Positions 29,671-39,150 of a stretch of DNA of 64,000 nt are shown one piece after another. This DNA is from Streptomyces antibioticus (lineage in GTDB: Bacteria > Actinomycetota > Actinomycetes > Streptomycetales > Streptomycetaceae), in contig NZ_KQ948422.1 of NCBI RefSeq assembly GCF_001514065.1, positions 558,001 to 622,000 on the forward strand, given 5' to 3'. How positions within the stretch are numbered: the stretch's first letter is position 1; the number at the start of each line of letters is the position of its first letter. Position numbers and translations under genes: made by a program. Under the pieces are notes generated by a model. That model had not been told where the DNA came from and searched no databases. It was given only the letters and a program-made list of their open reading frames with translations.

Positions 29671-31011
29671 ATGCCTTCCCCGCTGTTCAGGCGACTGCGC
29701 CGCCCGCCCACTCTGGACCTCGACGACATCCAGGCGACCCTGCTGCGGGCCCGGCCCGAGCCCTACTTCGGCACCCACGCGATCCTGGAGATCACCGAAC
29801 CGGCCGCGGGCAGGGAACTGCTGCGCCGGCTGGCGCCGAGAGTGACCTCGGCGGCGCGCTGGGACGAACCGCAGCCGTCCTGGCTGGCCCTCGCCCTCAG
29901 CTACCAGGGTCTGGTCGCACTGGGGCTGCCGGAGAGCTCACTGGCCTCCTTCCCGGCCAACTTCCGCGCCGGGATGGCCGCCCGCGCCGAGCGGCTGCGG
30001 GACACCGGCGTGAACGCGCCGGACCGCTGGGAGTTCCCCTTCGGCACCTCGCGCGTGCATGCCGCCGTCACGGTGTATGCCGAGAGCGAGGACGACTGGC
30101 GGGCCGAAGTCGCCGCCTACGAAAAGGAACTGGGCGAGGTCCCTGGCGTACGACTGCTGTCGCACCAGGACTTCGCCGCCGACGGGTTCAACGTCTTCGG
30201 CTACCGGGACGGCTTCAGCCAGCCGGTGGTCGAGGGCAGTGGCGCCGAGCCTCTGCCCGGAGACGGACGCCCCATCAAGGCCGGCGAGTTCATCCTCGGC
30301 TACCCGAGCGAGACCGGGGTGCCGCTGCCCGTACCGGCTCCGGACGTCCTGGGCCGCAACGGCACGTACGTCGTCTTCCGCAAGTACCACTCCCACGTCG
30401 CGGCCTTCAACAAGTGGCTGCACGACAACGCCTCCACCGAGGCCGAACGCGAGCTCCTGGCCGCCAAGTTGGTCGGCCGCTGGCGCAGCGGCGCACCTCT
30501 CGCCCTCTCGCCCGACCGCGACACCCCCACCATCGGCGAGGACCCGAACCGGATCAACGACTTCGACTACTCCGCCGACCCGCGCGGACTGCGCACCCCG
30601 CTCGGCTCCCACATCCGCCGGATGAACCCGCGCGACACCAAACTCACGGTCCTCAGCGACGTCAACATCCGCCGCATCATCCGGCGCGGCACCTCCTACG
30701 GCACTCCCCTGCCCCCCGACCGCCTCAAGGACGACGGCAAGCCGCGCGGCCTGGACTTCATCGCCCTCGGCGCCCGCGCCATCGACAACGTCGAGTTCCT
30801 CCAGAGCGAATGGGTCGGCTCCGGCAACTTCATGGGCCTGGGCAAGGAGAAGGACCCGATGATCTCGCTCCAGGACAAGGGCGCCTACTTCACCGTGCCC
30901 GGGACCCCGCCGCGCCGGGTGCAGAACATCCAGTCCTTCAACACCCTCCTCGGCGGCGAGTACTTCTTCATGCCGAGCCTGTCCGCCGTCCGCTGGCTCG
31001 CCGGCAACTGA
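29671..31011 (+). CDS. Dyp-type haem peroxidase
   Basis: The 446-residue enzyme has the Dyp hallmarks. These are the GXXDG motif in FGYRDGFSQP with catalytic Asp180, the proximal haem His314 in GSHIRRMNPRD, and the distal arginine segment RRIIRRGTSYG (about 334-344). A ferredoxin-like repeat fold is expected, and the length suits the larger C/P-type Dyp enzymes. There is no signal peptide, so it should act in the cytosol or in an encapsulated form; no encapsulin gene is nearby. It lies between the 202-residue protein gene and the catalase-like gene in one operon. Confidence 0.92.
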   Translation: MPSPLFRRLRRPPTLDLDDIQATLLRARPEPYFGTHAILEITEPAAGRELLRRLAPRVTSAARWDEPQPSWLALALSYQGLVALGLPESSLASFPANFRAGMAARAERLRDTGVNAPDRWEFPFGTSRVHAAVTVYAESEDDWRAEVAAYEKELGEVPGVRLLSHQDFAADGFNVFGYRDGFSQPVVEGSGAEPLPGDGRPIKAGEFILGYPSETGVPLPVPAPDVLGRNGTYVVFRKYHSHVAAFNKWLHDNASTEAERELLAAKLVGRWRSGAPLALSPDRDTPTIGEDPNRINDFDYSADPRGLRTPLGSHIRRMNPRDTKLTVLSDVNIRRIIRRGTSYGTPLPPDRLKDDGKPRGLDFIALGARAIDNVEFLQSEWVGSGNFMGLGKEKDPMISLQDKGAYFTVPGTPPRRVQNIQSFNTLLGGEYFFMPSLSAVRWLAGN

Positions 31012-31038
31012 CCCCCACCTCGCGCGGAGACACACCCC

Positions 31039-32127
31039 ATGACCTCGTACGTCCGCTACAGCCCCGACCTCGAACAGCCCTTTCCGGACGAGGACGAACT
31101 CGTCCGCCAGGTCGTCGCGGCCATGGGCAAGGCCAACCAGCAGGTCGCCGACAAACACCGTCACGGCCTGCGCGACGCCCACGCCAAGAGCCACGGCGTC
31201 CTCGCCGGTGAGCTGCGCATCCAACCCGACCTGCCCGCCCACCTGGCCCAGGGCCTCTTCGCCGCGCCGGTCACCTACCCGGTGATCGTCCGCTTCTCCT
31301 CCGCCCCCGGCGATCTGCGCTCCGACCAGGTGCCCGTCCAGCGCGGCCTCGCGATGAAGGTGATCGGCGCGCCCGGGCCGCGGGCCCTCGACGACGGCTT
31401 CACCACCCAGGACTTCCTCCTCGTCAACCACCCCACCCTGCCCTTCGGCAACATCGCCGAATACGCCAAACTCCAGGACCTGTTGGAGAAACAGCCCGGC
31501 CAGAGCGACCAGCAGCTCCAACTCACCGGCGCGGCCGCCCGAGTTGCCGCCAAGGCCCTCACACGCGTCGGACGTCCGCTGCCGCCCGCCGTCGAGACCC
31601 TCGCCGCCGCCAACGACCACATCCTCGGCGAGACCTTCCACTCCATGGCCGCGCTGCGCTACGGCGACCACGTGGCGAAGATGTCCGCCGCGCCCCGCTC
31701 GGCGAACGTCAGGGCCCTCACCGGCAGCCACGTCGACAAGAAGGCCGGCGAGTCGGCCCTGCGTGACCTCGTCGTCGACTTCTTCGCGGACAACAGCGCC
31801 GAGTACGACATCCGCGCCCAACTGTGCACGGACATCGACCGGATGCCGGTGGAGGACGCCTCGGTCCTGTGGCCCGAGGAACTGTCACCGCACCGGACCG
31901 TGGCCGTGCTGCATCTGCCCGCCCAGGACGCCTACAGCGACGCCCGCCGCCGCTACGCCGACGACGTCCTCTCCTTCAGCCCCTGGCACGCCCTGGAGGC
32001 CCACCGCCCGCTGGGCTCGATCATGCGCTCCCGGCGCGCCGCGTACCCCGCGTCCAGCGACTTCCGGCACCGCTTCAACGGCATCGAGCCGCAGGAGCCG
32101 TCCGACATCAAGGAGCTGCCCGCCTGA
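31039..32127 (+). CDS. Catalase family protein (catalase-like haem domain)
   Basis: The 362-residue product is a minimal catalase-related protein. The distal haem histidine is His52 in KSHGVLAGELRI, followed by VIVRFSSAPGD with Arg85. The C-terminal block is SPWHALEAHRPLGSIMRSRR, the pattern of allene-oxide-synthase-like/SrpA-type catalase relatives. The canonical proximal R-x-F-x-Y motif is not seen, so peroxidase or fatty-acid hydroperoxide activity is more likely than efficient catalase activity. The gene begins 27 bases after the Dyp stop and is the last of the operon; a hairpin follows. Confidence 0.88.
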   Translation: MTSYVRYSPDLEQPFPDEDELVRQVVAAMGKANQQVADKHRHGLRDAHAKSHGVLAGELRIQPDLPAHLAQGLFAAPVTYPVIVRFSSAPGDLRSDQVPVQRGLAMKVIGAPGPRALDDGFTTQDFLLVNHPTLPFGNIAEYAKLQDLLEKQPGQSDQQLQLTGAAARVAAKALTRVGRPLPPAVETLAAANDHILGETFHSMAALRYGDHVAKMSAAPRSANVRALTGSHVDKKAGESALRDLVVDFFADNSAEYDIRAQLCTDIDRMPVEDASVLWPEELSPHRTVAVLHLPAQDAYSDARRRYADDVLSFSPWHALEAHRPLGSIMRSRRAAYPASSDFRHRFNGIEPQEPSDIKELPA

Positions 32128-32227: not shown

Positions 32228-32854
32228 GTGTCCCAGCCCGTCGGCCGTGTGCCCCAGCGACGCAACGCCCGGTCCAATCGGGCCCGCATCCTGGCCACCG
32301 CCCGCCAGGAGCTCGGCCGGAACCCCGACATCACCCTGGAAGAACTCGCCCGCGCCGCCGGCGTCGTACGGCGCACGCTGTTCGGGCACTTCCCCGGCCG
32401 GGCAGCACTCCTGGACGCACTGGCCGAGGAGGCCGCCGAGGCGCTGCAGGCCACCGCGGCGGTCGGCGCGGGGGTGACGGAGCCGGCCGACCGGGCGTTC
32501 GCCCACTTCACGTTGGCGCTCTGGCCGGTGGGCGACCAGTACCGGATGCTCCTGTCGCTGGCCCGACGGGACCTCGGCATGGACCGTGTCGCCGGGATCC
32601 TGGAGCCCGCCCGGGTCAGGGCCACGGCCATCCTGGAGCAGGGACAACGGGACGGCGTCTTCCACACCCACCTGCCCGCCCCGGTGCTGAGCGCCGGTCT
32701 TGAGGCGATGACGGTCGCTCTCCTGGAGGAGGTCAACACCGGGGCGCTGGAGGACGACGGCACCCGCGCGGCCGTCAGCACGCTCATCGCGGCCGGAGTG
32801 CCGGAGAAGCGGGCGCGGATCGTCGTGGACGAGGTGGCCGCCGCCGCGGGGTGA
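32228..32854 (+). CDS. TetR family transcriptional regulator
   Basis: The 208-residue regulator has the helix-turn-helix RILATARQELGRNPDITLEE...AAGVVRRTLFGHFPGRAAL. Its DNA-binding part is clearly related to that of the TetR at 37692 (ARQELSRDPD, AAGVVRRTLYGHFHGRAAL), and both have ALWPVGDQYR/AVWPVGDRYR in the core. GTG 32228 is preceded by GAGG. It lies just before the PASTA kinase gene, whose promoter carries an operator of the same type as that at the other TetR's promoter. Confidence 0.9.
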   Translation: MSQPVGRVPQRRNARSNRARILATARQELGRNPDITLEELARAAGVVRRTLFGHFPGRAALLDALAEEAAEALQATAAVGAGVTEPADRAFAHFTLALWPVGDQYRMLLSLARRDLGMDRVAGILEPARVRATAILEQGQRDGVFHTHLPAPVLSAGLEAMTVALLEEVNTGALEDDGTRAAVSTLIAAGVPEKRARIVVDEVAAAAG

Positions 32855-32875
32855 GATCCCTCTGCGGTACGACGT

Positions 32876-32903
32876 GACCCCGGTGCGAAGCGCCGGGGTC
32901 TTT
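32876..32903 (+). terminator. Terminator after tetR
   Basis: GACCCCGG and CCGGGGTC form an 8-bp stem with a 9-base loop, directly followed by TTT. It separates the tetR gene from the kinase gene. Confidence 0.65.
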
Positions 32904-32924
32904 CCGTGTCCGCCCTCACTTCTT

Positions 32925-32948
32925 TAATTGCCCTCAGCTGTGCAATTA
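32925..32948. promoter_or_regulatory. TAATTGC-N10-GCAATTA operator at the kinase promoter
   Basis: Perfect 7-bp arms TAATTGC and GCAATTA separated by 10 bases, ending 8 bases before the kinase ATG. The right arm overlaps a possible -10 element AATTAT located seven bases before the ATG, so binding would block initiation. The same architecture occurs twice at 37606 and 37633. Confidence 0.75.
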
Positions 32949-32956
32949 TCTTCTGT

Positions 32957-34873
32957 ATGAACTTCGGTGGCCCAGACGATCTGGCCTTCTCCCAACCTGC
33001 GCCGGCGGCGGTCATCGGCGACAGGTACGAACTGCGGCTGCTGCTCGGCTCCGGAGGCATGGCCGAGGTGCACCTCGCGCACGATCTCCGGCTCGACCGC
33101 AGCGTCGCGGTGAAGACTCCGCGCACCGACCTCGCCCACGATCCGGCACTCCAGGAGCGGTTCCGGCGGGAGGCCATGTCCACCGCCTCGCTCAACCACC
33201 CGGCCATCGCCGCCGTCTACGACACGGGCGAACACTTCTCCTACGGGTGGCAGTTGCCGTACCTCGTAATGGAGTACGTCGACGGCACCACCCTGCGCGA
33301 GGCCCTGTCCTCCGGACCACCGCTGACCGTCGAACGCGCCATGGAGGTGACGGCGAGCGTCCTGGAGGCGCTCGCCCATTCCCACCAGCAGGGCATCGTG
33401 CACCGGGACATCAAGCCCGCCAACATCATGGTGACCTGGTCCGGTCAGGTCAAGGTGATGGACTTCGGCATCGCCCGTGACGCACGGGACGTCGGCATGA
33501 CCCAGACCTCCATGGTGATCGGCACCGCGCAGTACCTCTCCCCCGAGCAGGCCATGGGACACGCCATCGACGCCCGCTCCGACCTGTACTCGGTGGGGTG
33601 CCTCGTGTACGAACTCCTCACCCTCCGCACGCCGTTCACCGGCGACTCGCCGATGGCGGTGATGTACCAGCACATCCAGGAGGAACCACGGCCGCCGAGC
33701 CTCTACAACCCCGAGGTCGGTCCGCAGGTCGATGTGATCGTCCTGCGGGCGCTGGCGAAGGACCCTGCGTATCGCTACCAGTCCGCGCAGGAGATGCTCG
33801 CCGACGTCGAGGCCTACCTCGGGGCGCAGACCGTCCTGGACCGGACGTTCGACAGCGTCGACGAGGAGCCGGACGGCGATGACACGGCGGAGAGCGGTCG
33901 CCGCAGAGGCAATGCCGCGCTGATCGGGACGGGTGTCGCGGTCGTCGTCGCGGCGCTGGTGCTCGGCTGGTTCATGTTCGGGCGCGGTGCGGCCGGCGAC
34001 GGCAAGACGGACGTACCCGATCTCGTCGGCCAGACCCTGGAGGAGGCCCGGCGCACGGCGGACAACGTCGAACTCACGCTCACCGTCGCCAGGAACGAGC
34101 CCTGCGCGGACCAGCCCAAGGGACACATCTGCACGCAGACCCCCGTGGACGGCCGGCTCGACAAGGGCGAGGCGGTGTCGGTCACCGTCTCCACCGGCGC
34201 GCCGAAGGTGGAGGTGCCGGACGTCACGGACAAGGACGAGGACGACGCGTCCCGTGTCCTGGAGGACAAGGGCTTCAAGGTGAAGCTCCGGCACAAGGTG
34301 TCCGCCAGGGACGCCGGAACCGTTCTGGCACAGGATCCGGCCGGCGGCGAGAGCGTCGAGAAGGGCACCGAGATCACCCTCACGGTCGCCAAGGAGGCCG
34401 AGAAGGCCACGGTTCCCGACCTCACCGGCAGCACGCTGAGCGAGGCCCGCAAGCTGCTCGCCGAGCACGACCTCGAACTGGGCGACACCACCGAGGTGGA
34501 GAGCAGCGCGGCGGCCGGGACCGTCGTCGAACAGAGCGCCGTCGCGGGAGATGAGGTCGAGCCCGGTTCGTCGGTCGACGTCCAGATCGCCAAGTCGGTG
34601 CAGACCGTGCAGATCCCGGCGGACATCATCGGCAAGACCCTTGCCGAGGTCCAGAACGAACTGGGCGACCTCGGCCTCCAGGCGAGCGTCGCCTCCGGGT
34701 ACTCCCAGGCCTCCGACGCCGTGGTCACCTCCAGCACCCCGGCGGCCGGGAGCGAGGTCGAGGCGGGCAGCACGGTGGTCGTCGTCACCGAAGAGCCTCA
34801 GGACACCTCGCCGGACGACGGGACACCGGACGACGGGACGTCGACGACGGGAGCGACCACCGACGACCAGTGA
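32957..34873 (+). CDS. PASTA-domain Ser/Thr protein kinase (PknB type)
   Basis: The 638-residue membrane kinase has P-loop GSGGMAEV (31-38), catalytic Lys53, HRDIKPAN (149-156), DFG (169-171) and a Thr-rich activation segment. A transmembrane helix follows (about 320-342, ALIGTGVAVVVAALVLGWFM). Outside are four PASTA repeats (about 352-615), which in PknB bind muropeptides or lipid II. Unlike the usual PknB it is not beside pbpA/rodA/FHA genes, so it is an orphan copy. No Shine-Dalgarno precedes ATG 32957; with AATTAT seven bases ahead, a leaderless message is likely. The promoter overlaps the 24-bp operator. Confidence 0.93.
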   Translation: MNFGGPDDLAFSQPAPAAVIGDRYELRLLLGSGGMAEVHLAHDLRLDRSVAVKTPRTDLAHDPALQERFRREAMSTASLNHPAIAAVYDTGEHFSYGWQLPYLVMEYVDGTTLREALSSGPPLTVERAMEVTASVLEALAHSHQQGIVHRDIKPANIMVTWSGQVKVMDFGIARDARDVGMTQTSMVIGTAQYLSPEQAMGHAIDARSDLYSVGCLVYELLTLRTPFTGDSPMAVMYQHIQEEPRPPSLYNPEVGPQVDVIVLRALAKDPAYRYQSAQEMLADVEAYLGAQTVLDRTFDSVDEEPDGDDTAESGRRRGNAALIGTGVAVVVAALVLGWFMFGRGAAGDGKTDVPDLVGQTLEEARRTADNVELTLTVARNEPCADQPKGHICTQTPVDGRLDKGEAVSVTVSTGAPKVEVPDVTDKDEDDASRVLEDKGFKVKLRHKVSARDAGTVLAQDPAGGESVEKGTEITLTVAKEAEKATVPDLTGSTLSEARKLLAEHDLELGDTTEVESSAAAGTVVEQSAVAGDEVEPGSSVDVQIAKSVQTVQIPADIIGKTLAEVQNELGDLGLQASVASGYSQASDAVVTSSTPAAGSEVEAGSTVVVVTEEPQDTSPDDGTPDDGTSTTGATTDDQ

Positions 34874-34905
34874 GACGCCGTTCACCGCCGGCGGTATTGG
34901 CTTGC

Positions 34906-35667
34906 CTACTCCTCGGGCTCCCAGGCGATGATCTGCTCGAACACCTGCCGATCGCCCTCGATCTTCAGGTCGTCCAGCGTGAGGCGGCCCCAGACGAAGA
35001 GAAGCAGTTGCTCGGCCGTGCCCGTGGCCGATACGGAGGCAGGCGCGGCGTCGTCGGTGAGGGGTGCGGGCCAGGCGCCGGTGCCGTCCAGCACGAGGAG
35101 CCAGGAGCGGCCCTCGGTGGCGTGGTACTGAATGGTGGCGGGCTCGTGCGGCCACGCCGCGGGGGTGGAGTTGCAGGTGTCGAGGAACTCGGCCACGCCG
35201 TCGATCGCGACGTCCACCGGCATCGGTTGCACGGCGCCTGCGGCGAGTTGAGCGTCGTAGGTGTGCACCAGCAGCTCGTGCACCCGGCGCCGGGCGACGC
35301 CCCAGGCATTCGCGGGTGACACGCCCGCGCTCCACCACGTCCAGCACTCGCGCTCCGGGCCCGCCTCGCGCAGTGCGCTCAGCAGCAGCTCGTTCGACTC
35401 GGTGTACCAGGCCAGCAGCGCGTCGAGCTCGCGCGGCGCCTTCGCGGCGTCCTTGGCCGGCGGAGCCTCGGCCGGGCCCGCGGCGACGATGGTGGCCCAC
35501 CAGCGCTGGCCCGTACCCAGGTGCTGCACCAGATCGAACACCGTCCACTCGGGGCAGGACGGCACCGGCGCGTCAAGGCCGGGCGCGGCGGCAACCGCAC
35601 TCCGGAACGCGGCCGACCGCTCGTCGATCAGTCGCAGCAGGGCGGAATACTCAAGACTCTCTGTCAC
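34906..35667 (-). CDS. Maleylpyruvate-isomerase/DinB-like mycothiol-dependent enzyme
   Basis: The 253-residue protein has the four-helix DinB-like N-terminal domain of the mycothiol-dependent maleylpyruvate isomerase family. Metal-binding histidines appear in WTVFDLVQHLG and ARRRVHELLVHTYDA, and the MDMPI C-terminal segment contains AEQLLLFVWGRL. Such cytosolic proteins use mycothiol to isomerise or detoxify electrophiles; the substrate here is unknown. It converges with the kinase gene, 32 bp apart. Confidence 0.87.
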   Translation of the reverse strand: MTESLEYSALLRLIDERSAAFRSAVAAAPGLDAPVPSCPEWTVFDLVQHLGTGQRWWATIVAAGPAEAPPAKDAAKAPRELDALLAWYTESNELLLSALREAGPERECWTWWSAGVSPANAWGVARRRVHELLVHTYDAQLAAGAVQPMPVDVAIDGVAEFLDTCNSTPAAWPHEPATIQYHATEGRSWLLVLDGTGAWPAPLTDDAAPASVSATGTAEQLLLFVWGRLTLDDLKIEGDRQVFEQIIAWEPEE

Positions 35668-35723
35668 ATGACTTACCTATCAGCCCAGTTCAGCGACCGC
35701 ACTCCATTTCTTTTCCGTCATGG

Positions 35724-35749
35724 CGCGCCCTCGATGCGTCGAGGGCGCG
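35724..35749. terminator. Hairpin 1 of three between MFS gene and MDMPI gene
   Basis: CGCGCCCTCGA pairs with TCGAGGGCGCG (11 bp) around a TGCG loop. Confidence 0.5.
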
Positions 35750-35763
35750 TCTCGGTCGCGGAC

Positions 35764-35808
35764 AACAAAAAGGGGACGGTGCCAGGTGTCCCCTCCCGGC
35801 ACCGTCCC
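35764..35808 (-). terminator. Intrinsic terminator of the MFS transcript
   Basis: On the minus strand, GGGACGGTGCC (35808-35798) pairs with GGCACCGTCCC (35783-35773) over 11 bp. It is followed by CCTTTTTGT, a genuine T-tract and so a good rho-independent terminator for the MFS gene, about 85 bases after its stop. Confidence 0.75.
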
Positions 35809-35850
35809 GGGGCCGTGCGCCGCTCAGGCACAGCCCGTTCTGGGGGTGGA

Positions 35851-35877
35851 GGAGGCCGGAATCAGGTTCCGGCCTCC
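35851..35877. terminator. Hairpin 3, next to the MFS stop codon
   Basis: GGAGGCCGGAA pairs with TTCCGGCCTCC (11 bp, 5-base loop), 12 bases after the MFS stop on the minus strand. Confidence 0.5.
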
Positions 35878-35889
35878 GGTGTACGAGGC

Positions 35890-37503
35890 TCAGACGTCCA
35901 CGGTCTCGGTCTGCTCCGCGGTGGCCGCTGCCGCATCTGCCTCACCGTGCTTGGTGGTGTGCCCCCGGCCGGGCAGAACGGCGATGACGATCAGGGTTCC
36001 GGCGGCCATGATGATGCCGCCGATGAGGCTGGTGTGGGCGATGGCGTGGGCGAAGGACTCGTGCACCGCTCCCAGCAGGGTCTGGGCCTGCTCGGCGCCG
36101 CCCTGGGGGTTCTTGGAGACCTGCTCGGCGACCGCGATGCCACCGCCGACGGAGTCCTTGGCGACGTCCATGGCGTCAGCCGGGAGGTGGCCGCCGACCA
36201 TGTCGGTGAGCTTGTCCTTGTAGGACGTGGCCAGCAGCGAGCCGAGGATGGCGATGCCCAGGGCGCAACCCAGTTCCAGCGCGGTGTCGTTGGCGCCGCC
36301 GCCGACGCCCAGCTCGTCCTCGGGGAAGGAGCCCATGATGGTGTCGGTGGCCGGGGCGAGGCTCAGGCCGATGGCGAAGCCGAGCAGCAGCAGGGGCGTC
36401 AGGAAGTCGGTGTAGGTCGAGCCCGTCTCGATCTGGGTGAGCAGGAAGACGCCCGCGGTGCCGATGACCATGCCGGTGCCGACCACGATCTTCACGCCCA
36501 GCTTCGGGGCGAGCTTGCCGGTGACGGCGGAGCCGACGAACACGGCGCCGGCCAGGGGCAGCAGGCGGATACCGGTCTCCAGGGCGTCGTAGCCGAGGAC
36601 GAACTGCAGGAACTGGGTGGAGTAGTAGATCGAGCCGAAGGTGCCGAAGAAGAAGAACAGCACCGCCATCATCGAGCCGCCGAAGGGACGCTCGGTGAAC
36701 TTGCGGACGTCCAGCATGGGGTTGGGGTGCTTCAGCTCCCAGGCGACGAAGGCCAGCAGGCCCACGCCGGCGACGACGGCCGCGGTGATCGGGCCAACGC
36801 CCCACCCGAAGTGCGGGCCTTCGATGGTCGCGTAGACCAGGGAGCCGACCGAGGCGATCGACAGAAGCCCGCCGACGTAGTCGATGCGACCCATGCCCTC
36901 CGCCTTCGACGGCGGCACGAGCAGCAGCGCGCCGACGACGCCGAGGACGGCGACGGGGACGTTCATCAGGAAAGTGGAGCCCCAGGCGTGGTTCTCCAGC
37001 AGCCAGCCGGCGGCCAGTGGACCGGCGGCGATGGCGAGCCCGGAGGTCGCGGACCAGGCGGTGATCGCCTTGGCGCGCTCGGCGCGGGGGAAGATCGCGA
37101 CCAGCAGTGAGAGCGTGGCCGGCATGACGACGGCGGCACCGACGCCCATGATCGCGCGGGCTGTGATGACGAGGTTCGTCGCATCGACCAAGCCGCCCAT
37201 CACCGAACCTCCGGCGAAGATCAGCAGGCCGAGGACGAGGGCGCCGCGGCGGCTGTACTTGTCGCCGATCGCGCCCAGCACCAGCATCAGCGCGGCGTAG
37301 GGGACGGTGTAGCCGTCGATGACCCACTGCAGGTCACTGCTGCTCAGCCCCAGGTCCTTGGTCATGTCGGGGGCGGCAACGATCAGTGACGTGTTCGCCA
37401 TGACGACGATCAGCAGGCTCAGGCACAGGACCAGCAGGGCCCACCAGCGGCGGTGGTAGGGCTCCGTCATCTTCTCGACGGGCGTGTTCGGAAAGAGCGG
37501 CAT
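35890..37503 (-). CDS. MFS drug exporter, DHA2/EmrB-QacA type (14 TM)
   Basis: The 537-residue membrane protein has about 14 hydrophobic segments. It carries the DHA2 motifs: motif A-like GDKYSRRGALVLG, motif C region in WSATSGLAIAAGPLAAGWL, and the opening LLIVVMANTSLIVAAPDMTK typical of EmrB/QacA exporters. Proton-driven export of a lipophilic compound is expected. GAGGAG lies about eight bases before ATG 37503; the frame is open to 37581. It is divergent from tetR 37692 with two operators in between, the classic exporter/repressor arrangement. Confidence 0.93.
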   Translation of the reverse strand: MPLFPNTPVEKMTEPYHRRWWALLVLCLSLLIVVMANTSLIVAAPDMTKDLGLSSSDLQWVIDGYTVPYAALMLVLGAIGDKYSRRGALVLGLLIFAGGSVMGGLVDATNLVITARAIMGVGAAVVMPATLSLLVAIFPRAERAKAITAWSATSGLAIAAGPLAAGWLLENHAWGSTFLMNVPVAVLGVVGALLLVPPSKAEGMGRIDYVGGLLSIASVGSLVYATIEGPHFGWGVGPITAAVVAGVGLLAFVAWELKHPNPMLDVRKFTERPFGGSMMAVLFFFFGTFGSIYYSTQFLQFVLGYDALETGIRLLPLAGAVFVGSAVTGKLAPKLGVKIVVGTGMVIGTAGVFLLTQIETGSTYTDFLTPLLLLGFAIGLSLAPATDTIMGSFPEDELGVGGGANDTALELGCALGIAILGSLLATSYKDKLTDMVGGHLPADAMDVAKDSVGGGIAVAEQVSKNPQGGAEQAQTLLGAVHESFAHAIAHTSLIGGIIMAAGTLIVIAVLPGRGHTTKHGEADAAAATAEQTETVDV

Positions 37504-37605
37504 GGTCGGGCTCCTCGGCAGGAGGTGAAGCGGAGGCTTCGGGGGTGTGGAAAACGATGGGATCGGTGCACGCGGGGCCAAGAGGGGGCCGGCACCAGGG
37601 GCAGC

Positions 37606-37629
37606 TAATTGCCCGTTGATGTGCAGACT
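37606..37629. promoter_or_regulatory. TAATTGC-N10 operator copy, exporter/tetR intergenic region
   Basis: TAATTGC-N10-GCAGACT. The left arm is identical to the kinase-promoter operator and the right arm is degenerate after GCA. The internal segment ends in GTTGATGT, like GCTGATGT of the next copy. Centre-to-centre distance to the next copy is 27 bp. Confidence 0.6.
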
Positions 37630-37632
37630 AGT

Positions 37633-37656
37633 TTATTGCTCGCTGATGTGCAACTA
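37633..37656. promoter_or_regulatory. TTATTGC-N10-GCAACTA operator copy
   Basis: The same 24-bp layout as the sites at 32925 and 37606: arms TTATTGC and GCAACTA, with internal TCGCTGATGT. It lies 35 bp before the tetR start. Confidence 0.68.
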
Positions 37657-37691: not shown

Positions 37692-38330
37692 ATGATCCAC
37701 GCACACCTGACAGCCGCCCCGGAACGCAGCCGCACCCTGCTCACACGGGCCCGCATCCTGGAGGCGGCCCGGCAGGAACTCAGCCGTGACCCCGACAGCA
37801 GCCTCGGTGACATCGCCGAGGCGGCAGGGGTGGTGCGCCGTACGCTCTATGGCCACTTCCATGGCCGGGCCGCCCTGGTGGAGGGCCTGGTGGAGGAGGC
37901 CACGTGGGCCTTGCGGCAGGCGCTCGCGGCCCCGCGCGCGCCGGTGGCGGATGCCGTCACGGAGCTGGCGCGCTTCGTCCTCGCGGTGTGGCCCGTCGGA
38001 GATCGCTACCGCATCCTGCTCAGACTCGCGCCCCAGGACCTCGGAGCCGATCGGCTGACGGAAGTCCTGGCTCCCGCGCGGGACATGGCGGAGGCGATCA
38101 TCTCCCGGGGACAGCGGCAGGGCGCCTTTCAGGCCGGCATACCCCCGGTCGTCCTGACCCGGGCGCTGGAGGGGTACCTGCTGGGGCTTCTGGACTGCGC
38201 GAACAGCGCGGCCTGGAGCGACGACGGCGCCGACAGCGCGGCCGCCGCCCTGATCGCGATGGGCGTGGCCGAAGACAGTGCCGCGGTGTGCGTCCACGGA
38301 CTCGTCCGCCCCGCGGGCGACGCCGCGTAG
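37692..38330 (+). CDS. TetR family repressor of the MFS exporter
   Basis: The 212-residue protein has the helix-turn-helix ARILEAARQELSRDPDSSLG...AAGVVRRTLYGHFHGRAAL and an all-helical ligand domain (LARFVLAVWPVGDRYRILLR). GGAGG stands six bases before the ATG. It is divergent from the exporter and 35 bp from the nearest operator copy, so it probably represses both. Its recognition helix is nearly the same as that of TetR 32228, which suggests shared DNA sites. Confidence 0.92.
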   Translation: MIHAHLTAAPERSRTLLTRARILEAARQELSRDPDSSLGDIAEAAGVVRRTLYGHFHGRAALVEGLVEEATWALRQALAAPRAPVADAVTELARFVLAVWPVGDRYRILLRLAPQDLGADRLTEVLAPARDMAEAIISRGQRQGAFQAGIPPVVLTRALEGYLLGLLDCANSAAWSDDGADSAAAALIAMGVAEDSAAVCVHGLVRPAGDAA

Positions 38331-38367: not shown

Positions 38368-39150
38368 ATGTACCAGTCCCCCCACGACGAGAAGTACGTC
38401 GGCGAGCCCTACTACGGCGACGGTTCCGTGTATGCGAGCCCTCCGACCCGGACCAGGCGGCGCATGATCATCGCCGCCGCGTCCCTGGCGGCCCTGCTGG
38501 TCGGCGGAGTCGCGGTCGACCGGATCGCCGCAGTCCGTGCGGAGAGCCGTATGGCCAAGGCGTTCCAGGACGGCATGGGAACCGCCGATCGGCCGTCGGT
38601 GCATGTCAGGGGCTTTCCCGTACTGGCCCAATTGGCTGCGGGCAGCCTGGACCATGTCGACCTGACCGCCCACGACATTCCGGCCGACGGCACCACCCGG
38701 CCGCTCCCGGTGACGAAGCTGACGGTCGGGATGGACGGGCTGAAGACCTCGGGGAGCGCCGACGAGGCTCACGCGGACAGCGTCACAGCGACCGCGTTCC
38801 TGTCGTATGCGGACGTGTCGAGCGCACTCGGCGTGCAGGTGTCACAAGGAGACGAGCCCGGCCGGGTCGACGCGACCGCGAGTCTGCCGCTCGTCGGCGA
38901 CGTGACCGTGAGCTCGGCCGTCTCGGCGGCCGACGGCAACAGCATCGCCTTCACGGACGTACGCGCGGAGCAGGGTGAACTGCTCCCGCCGCTGAAATCA
39001 CTGCTCGACAAGGCCCTGGACGAGCCCATTCCGCTGCAGAACGTGCCCGAAGGGCTCCGGCTGCGGTCGGTCACCACCACCGGGGACGGAATCGACGCCC
39101 GCTTCACAGGCCGCTCGGTCACCTTCCACCCGGACTCGTCGTCCGCGTGA
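38368..39150 (+). CDS. LmeA-like phospholipid-binding protein (DUF2993)
   Basis: The 260-residue product has a cytosolic N-terminus rich in Tyr, Ser and Pro, then a signal anchor (RRRMIIAAASLAALLVGGVA). Outside is a DUF2993 domain with the usual start FQDGMGTADRPSVHVRGFPVLAQLAAGSLDHVD (first part as landmark), FTDVRAEQGELLPPL and a terminal FTGRSVTF. Mycobacterial LmeA binds phosphoinositides and supports mannan elongation; a lipid-binding envelope role is inferred. GAGGAG lies before the ATG, 38 bases after the tetR stop, so it is probably co-transcribed. Confidence 0.85.
   Translation: MYQSPHDEKYVGEPYYGDGSVYASPPTRTRRRMIIAAASLAALLVGGVAVDRIAAVRAESRMAKAFQDGMGTADRPSVHVRGFPVLAQLAAGSLDHVDLTAHDIPADGTTRPLPVTKLTVGMDGLKTSGSADEAHADSVTATAFLSYADVSSALGVQVSQGDEPGRVDATASLPLVGDVTVSSAVSAADGNSIAFTDVRAEQGELLPPLKSLLDKALDEPIPLQNVPEGLRLRSVTTTGDGIDARFTGRSVTFHPDSSSA

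Follow-up and report, generated by a model that had tools for sequence, protein, structure and literature searches.

In the Streptomyces pair SCO3367/SCO3366, according to the accessible part of its description (PMC3511530), a TetR-family gene is divergent from an MFS exporter gene across a gap of less than 200 bp, and this gap holds two palindromic sites. The locus analysed here, which lies in a stretch of 64,000 nucleotides from Streptomyces antibioticus (the window), shares this arrangement, with 188 bp from start codon to start codon. However, the operator sequence is a different one, and the available text on SCO3367/SCO3366 reports no kinase promoter with a site. A second pair from the same source, SGR5269/SGR5270 of S. 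griseus, shares TTGC/GCAA half-sites at the TetR/MFS gap with our locus, but has a middle of 7 bp (TTGC-N7-GCAA) instead of 10 bp. In the portion of the paper available to us, the S. griseus TetR bound its sites in vitro, whereas the neighbouring MFS gene was not regulated in a reporter test. This case counts against reading the sites described below as those of a shared regulon.

A TetR repressor has also been tied to a Ser/Thr kinase, in the EthR/PknF system of Mycobacterium tuberculosis (PMC4601284); as the accessible text has it, the kinase phosphorylates the repressor in vitro in that system, whereas here a repressor-type site lies at the kinase promoter. The kinase considered here resembles PknB/Stk1-type PASTA kinases (NF033483) in having a kinase domain, one hydrophobic segment and four PASTA stretches, and differs from them in being an extra copy, present in at least 6 of 392 sampled genus genomes, with an efflux-type operator. 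In searches of an open-access library we recognised no precedent for a TetR-controlled PASTA kinase. The mechanism that we propose is of a known kind; what is unusual is the kinase as its target.

Our main reading, which draws on sequence comparison and to which we give a probability of roughly 0.8, is that the window carries a small TetR regulon, in which one shared TetR specificity would govern an accessory PASTA kinase, a DHA2-like exporter, and the exporter's repressor together with an LmeA-like envelope protein.

Candidate operators and the accessory kinase

The kinase-side candidate operator, TAATTGCCCTCAGCTGTGCAATTA (32925-32948; TAATTGC-N10-GCAATTA), was found by a palindrome search and is kept at orthologues of the kinase. 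The TetR2-side candidate, TTATTGCTCGCTGATGTGCAACTA (37633-37656; TTATTGC-N10-GCAACTA), came from the same search, and the exporter-side candidate, TAATTGCCCGTTGATGTGCAGACT (37606-37629; TAATTGC-N10-GCAGACT), whose right arm is non-palindromic, was picked up by a looser 24-bp pattern. With up to three mismatches allowed, the full palindrome matched the window twice (at 32925 and 37633) against 0.08 matches expected, and none of 100 shuffles reached two. In the whole 10.1-Mb genome, the three sites fitted the looser pattern with 0, 0 and 2 mismatches; it also matched two further places poorly, with 3, and its reversed control gave no match. An earlier note on this DNA had pointed out three 24-bp sites of the same layout at 32925, 37606 and 37633; they lie at exactly those positions, and no other good match occurs genome-wide. 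Among the 392 genus genomes, a near-exact site pattern was present in 10, and its reversed control was absent from all 392.

From the exporter gaps of 11 genomes lacking the kinase we took 13 exact-core sites and derived a symmetric matrix (the exporter-only matrix). Its three best places in the window are the reported sites (31.7, 24.7 and 23.6), with the next scoring 9.6. Applied to the upstream regions of 12 kinase orthologues, it gave 23.0-42.0 bits, and for each region none of 300 shuffles reached the score; the highest score among 73 paralogous kinase genes was 2.9 bits. A chance origin of the sites is ruled out by their rarity in window and genome, by the 392-genome control and by the exporter-only matrix scores. 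Judged by these comparisons, the three sites are real and conserved, and they belong to a small candidate TetR regulon.

The accessory PASTA Ser/Thr kinase gene (32957..34873, + strand) encodes a protein of 638 aa that scores 639.4 bits with NF033483 (cut-off 450). The protein has VAVK at 50, HRD at 149 and DFG at 169, one hydrophobic segment at about 321-341, and four PASTA stretches, from which we infer a catalytic domain, a membrane segment and extracellular PASTA repeats. Since two other proteins of the genome have four PASTA matches each, this kinase is an extra copy. The genus genomes with an orthologue (≥71% identical), at least six in number, include the window's own; three candidates were scored per genome in this 392-genome survey, and its presence counts are lower bounds. 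At least seven named records also hold an orthologue, and because one of these, L141, is the contig of G014, the matches listed comprise 12 distinct kinase loci. A 49% relative in G198, without the site, was left out of the orthologues.

Paired TetR regulators and the exporter gap

Both TetR genes lie on the + strand, TetR1 (32228..32854) upstream of the kinase and TetR2 (37692..38330) divergent from the exporter. Each encodes an N-terminal TetR_N helix-turn-helix domain (PF00440, 33.3 bits, cut-off 24), and neither protein matched a C-terminal Pfam family at E ≤ 0.001. The recognition helices (helix 3) read VVRRTLFGHF in TetR1 and VVRRTLYGHF in TetR2, which bears out the near identity that the earlier note had seen in the genes at 32228 and 37692; it had, however, understated the extent of the likeness, since the two proteins are full-length paralogues, 51% identical over 201 aa. 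A tree of 78 sequences, full-length and partial ones together, places TetR1 and TetR2 in putative sister groups. A sequence search of TetR2 against solved structures returned weak TetR matches alone, the best being TtgR (E 3.9e-6). A TetR matching at E ≤ 1e-20 occurs in at least 50 of 121 genus genomes and one at least 60% identical to TetR1 in at least 19 of the 121, both counts being lower bounds, with 25 candidates scored per genome. Two ORFs precede TetR1 (29671-32127), one resembling a Dyp-type peroxidase and the other unclassified, with no Pfam or NCBIfam match; this order is kept in several close relatives.

The MFS exporter (35890..37503, - strand; PF07690, 161.7 bits) is termed DHA2-like because its score with the DHA2/EmrB model TIGR00711 is just under the cut-off (229.2 against 230.2 bits); with the LfrA exporter model NF033896 it reaches 231.9 bits against a cut-off of 825. 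Behind TetR2 lies a gene for an LmeA-like envelope protein (38368..39150, + strand; PF11209, 97.2 bits, cut-off 27.3), which falls below the cut-off of the narrower model NF038021 (28.5 against 325). This gene is probably co-transcribed with TetR2. In 19 of 21 TetR2 loci it adjoins TetR2 or what remains of TetR2; L084 has it beside the operator with TetR2 absent.

We compared the exporter side in 20 close-group regions and 20 more distant ones. An exact TTGC-N10-GCAA lies in the exporter/TetR gap in 13 of the 20 close and 14 of the 20 distant regions; counting only regions with an exporter match, the figures are 13 of 14 and 14 of 14. The single close-group miss, L090 (G110), has a 5′-truncated exporter match with no site nearby, and was kept in the counts. 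Two sites (≤1 core mismatch) exactly 27 bp apart are found in 21 of 27 close-group loci. Relatives share the non-palindromic GCAGACT arm of the 37606 site; this arm might be conserved through a minus-strand promoter (TTGCAC, 17 bp, TAGTCT) that was spotted by eye and not reported by the promoter scan. Distant TetR/MFS pairs (L098-L112, 14 loci with an exporter match) have one to three regularly spaced TTGCACA-type sites, mostly at steps of 18 or 27 bp (45 in L100 and 28 in L111).

Alike sites could also reflect duplicate repressors that run two parallel circuits, with TetR1 acting on the kinase only, TetR2 on the exporter only, and no shared control. Gene order agrees with this: a full-length TetR1 lies directly upstream of the kinase at 8 of the 12 orthologue loci (L140 has only part of it there), and TetR2 and the exporter form a divergent pair. 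However, TetR1 is the only one of the two near exporter and sites in L074, L079, L083, L084 and L091, and TetR2 is broken in G222 and apparently also in G309, both of which retain the exporter sites and an intact TetR1. Beside the exporter, TetR1 and TetR2 appear to replace each other in relatives. Broken TetR2 genes with kept exporter sites, together with the TetR1-only exporter loci, favour cross-use of one operator by both TetRs, although they do not prove it. Two parallel circuits would also leave the nearly identical recognition helices and the detection of kinase sites by a matrix made from exporter gaps to be accounted for, and we consider them unlikely. Shared TetR specificity remains our preferred reading. 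Every one of the 12 kinase genomes has a TetR1 (≥72% identity); in three of them (G159, L142 and L144) it is not adjacent to the kinase and its site, and lies elsewhere in the genome. A point against our reading is that 6 of the 20 close-group regions have TetR1 but lack an exact site and have no exporter or kinase in the vicinity.

The kinase promoter across relatives

The kinase ATG is at 32957, separated from the operator by 8 bp. A GC-rich, terminator-like hairpin with a poor T run stands 3′ of TetR1 (32876..32900, + strand; 32870-32915 folds at -23.6 kcal/mol). It was not reported by the terminator scan, and it suggests that the kinase has a separate promoter. A possible -10 element, TATCTT (32947..32952, + strand), would overlap the operator end; the same hexamer is found in 10 of the 12 orthologues, the exceptions after the kinase site being TATTTT in G236 and TATCCG in L142. 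Sigma-70 and terminator scans reported nothing at either the kinase or the exporter promoter. Some TetR proteins are activators, going by the available part of PMC3511530, and the TetRs could act on one or both promoters as activators and not as repressors. However, the sites lie on or right beside what we take to be the core promoters, an arrangement that repression fits better, and activation is very unlikely.

Among the matches listed, all 12 orthologues have the site upstream of the kinase. Its core is free of mismatches in six (the window, G236, G014, G159, L142 and L144), has one mismatch in five (G049, G222, L138, L139 and L140) and has two in L143, which was kept in the counts. None of 73 paralogous kinase genes has the site at ≤1 core mismatch (-400 to +60, 33,580 bases). 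With one origin of the 12 kinase sites, the count of 12 in 12 represents conservation and not 12 independent events. The flanks align along with the site in five close species, so that among those five the site alone says little. Between the five and the other seven loci, and within the seven, the flanks are mostly unalignable, and the site is kept. It starts 32-33 bp before an ATG in the five close species, and 62-111 bp before a GTG in the seven other relatives, which have a leader with GGAGAAG ahead of the GTG. The kinase seems to have lost this leader in the five close species, where the ATG comes straight after the site and TATCTT (32925-32957), and sequence comparison suggests that their kinase message is leaderless.

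It is conceivable that the kinase site is a functionless relic that hitch-hikes with the TetR1 neighbourhood. In G302 (L135 5440-6280) the site remains, with one core mismatch, beside a kinase remnant next to TetR1; the kinase can evidently be lost, and the persistence of the site fits a relic, as does the weakening of the left half-site to TTAC in G049, G222, L138 and L139, all but one of the five closest kinase loci. Yet the site is found upstream of every one of the 12 intact kinase genes while the surrounding DNA has diverged. Hitch-hiking with TetR1 is disfavoured because the site persists where TetR1 is not adjacent (G159, L142 and L144), and a relic is highly improbable. That the palindrome is an RNA hairpin or terminator instead of an operator is scarcely credible, and was rejected as the main reading: 32915-32957 can fold (-6.1 kcal/mol), but the site is rare genome-wide, it agrees with the exporter-gap sites at fixed base positions, and the hairpin at 32876-32900 is separate and much stronger.

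Proposed regulon and its extent

Taking the sites as operators, we propose that a group of Streptomyces probably switches on kinase and exporter together. The three sites would be operators of one TetR specificity, which TetR1 and TetR2, as paralogous repressors, would have in common. Dimers bound to the tandem sites at 37606 and 37633 would hold down the divergent exporter and the TetR2/LmeA-like genes, and one bound to the lone site at 32925 would cover the promoter of the accessory PASTA kinase and hold that gene down. Release of the repressors by a small molecule, which may be a toxic natural product, would then allow exporter, envelope protein and kinase to be made together.

PASTA kinases are usually studied through their activation by cell-wall ligands, while here it is the repressor of an export pump that seems to govern how much of the kinase is made. 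If this is true, a streptomycete would not add a wall-type sensor unless a toxic compound were present. The shared operator offers a direct handle for finding the inducer and for testing co-control. A bolder version is a self-adjusting envelope-defence circuit, in which a toxic compound would free TetR1 and TetR2 and thereby induce exporter, LmeA-like protein and kinase, and the kinase would sense envelope damage outside the cell and phosphorylate the same TetRs, as PknF does with EthR in vitro. This circuit, drawn by analogy, is a long shot; if it were true, chemical sensing and damage sensing would converge on one operator.

The extent of the regulon was examined by scanning the 12 kinase genomes and G302 with a pattern allowing up to 3 mismatches. 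Because the reversed control gave up to 3 matches per genome at 3 mismatches, we set the threshold to ≤2. At this threshold, the kinase site matched in all 12 kinase genomes and the relic matched in G302, while all 13 genomes had matches in the exporter/TetR2 gap. Sites were confined to the kinase and exporter/TetR2 promoters in 12 of the 13 genomes, and apart from one extra place in G049 no larger regulon was found in this set. Shared control of kinase and exporter, which the earlier note had put forward, gains strong comparative support from the 12 of 12 orthologues, the 0 of 73 paralogues, the exporter-only matrix and the 12 of 13 genomes; the LmeA-like gene and the paralogy and apparent replacement of the TetRs had escaped that note, whose interpretation we regard as supported in part.

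The draft genomes of S. fulvoviolaceus and S. hokutonensis carry the kinase site on one contig and the TetR2-gap site on another, and in S. fulvoviolaceus there was no exporter match within the 1.5 kb examined beside the TetR2 site. The extra place in G049 (L136 5955-6008) is a tandem pair of the same sites, 27 bp apart, flanked by a Peripla_BP_6 gene on one side and a carrier/hexapeptide ORF on the other. Relatives of the latter ORF occur in 5 of the 12 other genomes, and the loci examined have no site at ≤1 core mismatch. In G049, the carrier/hexapeptide ORF is followed by an AMP-binding (NRPS-type) ORF, giving a natural-product-like gene set, which may have joined the regulon in this one genome.
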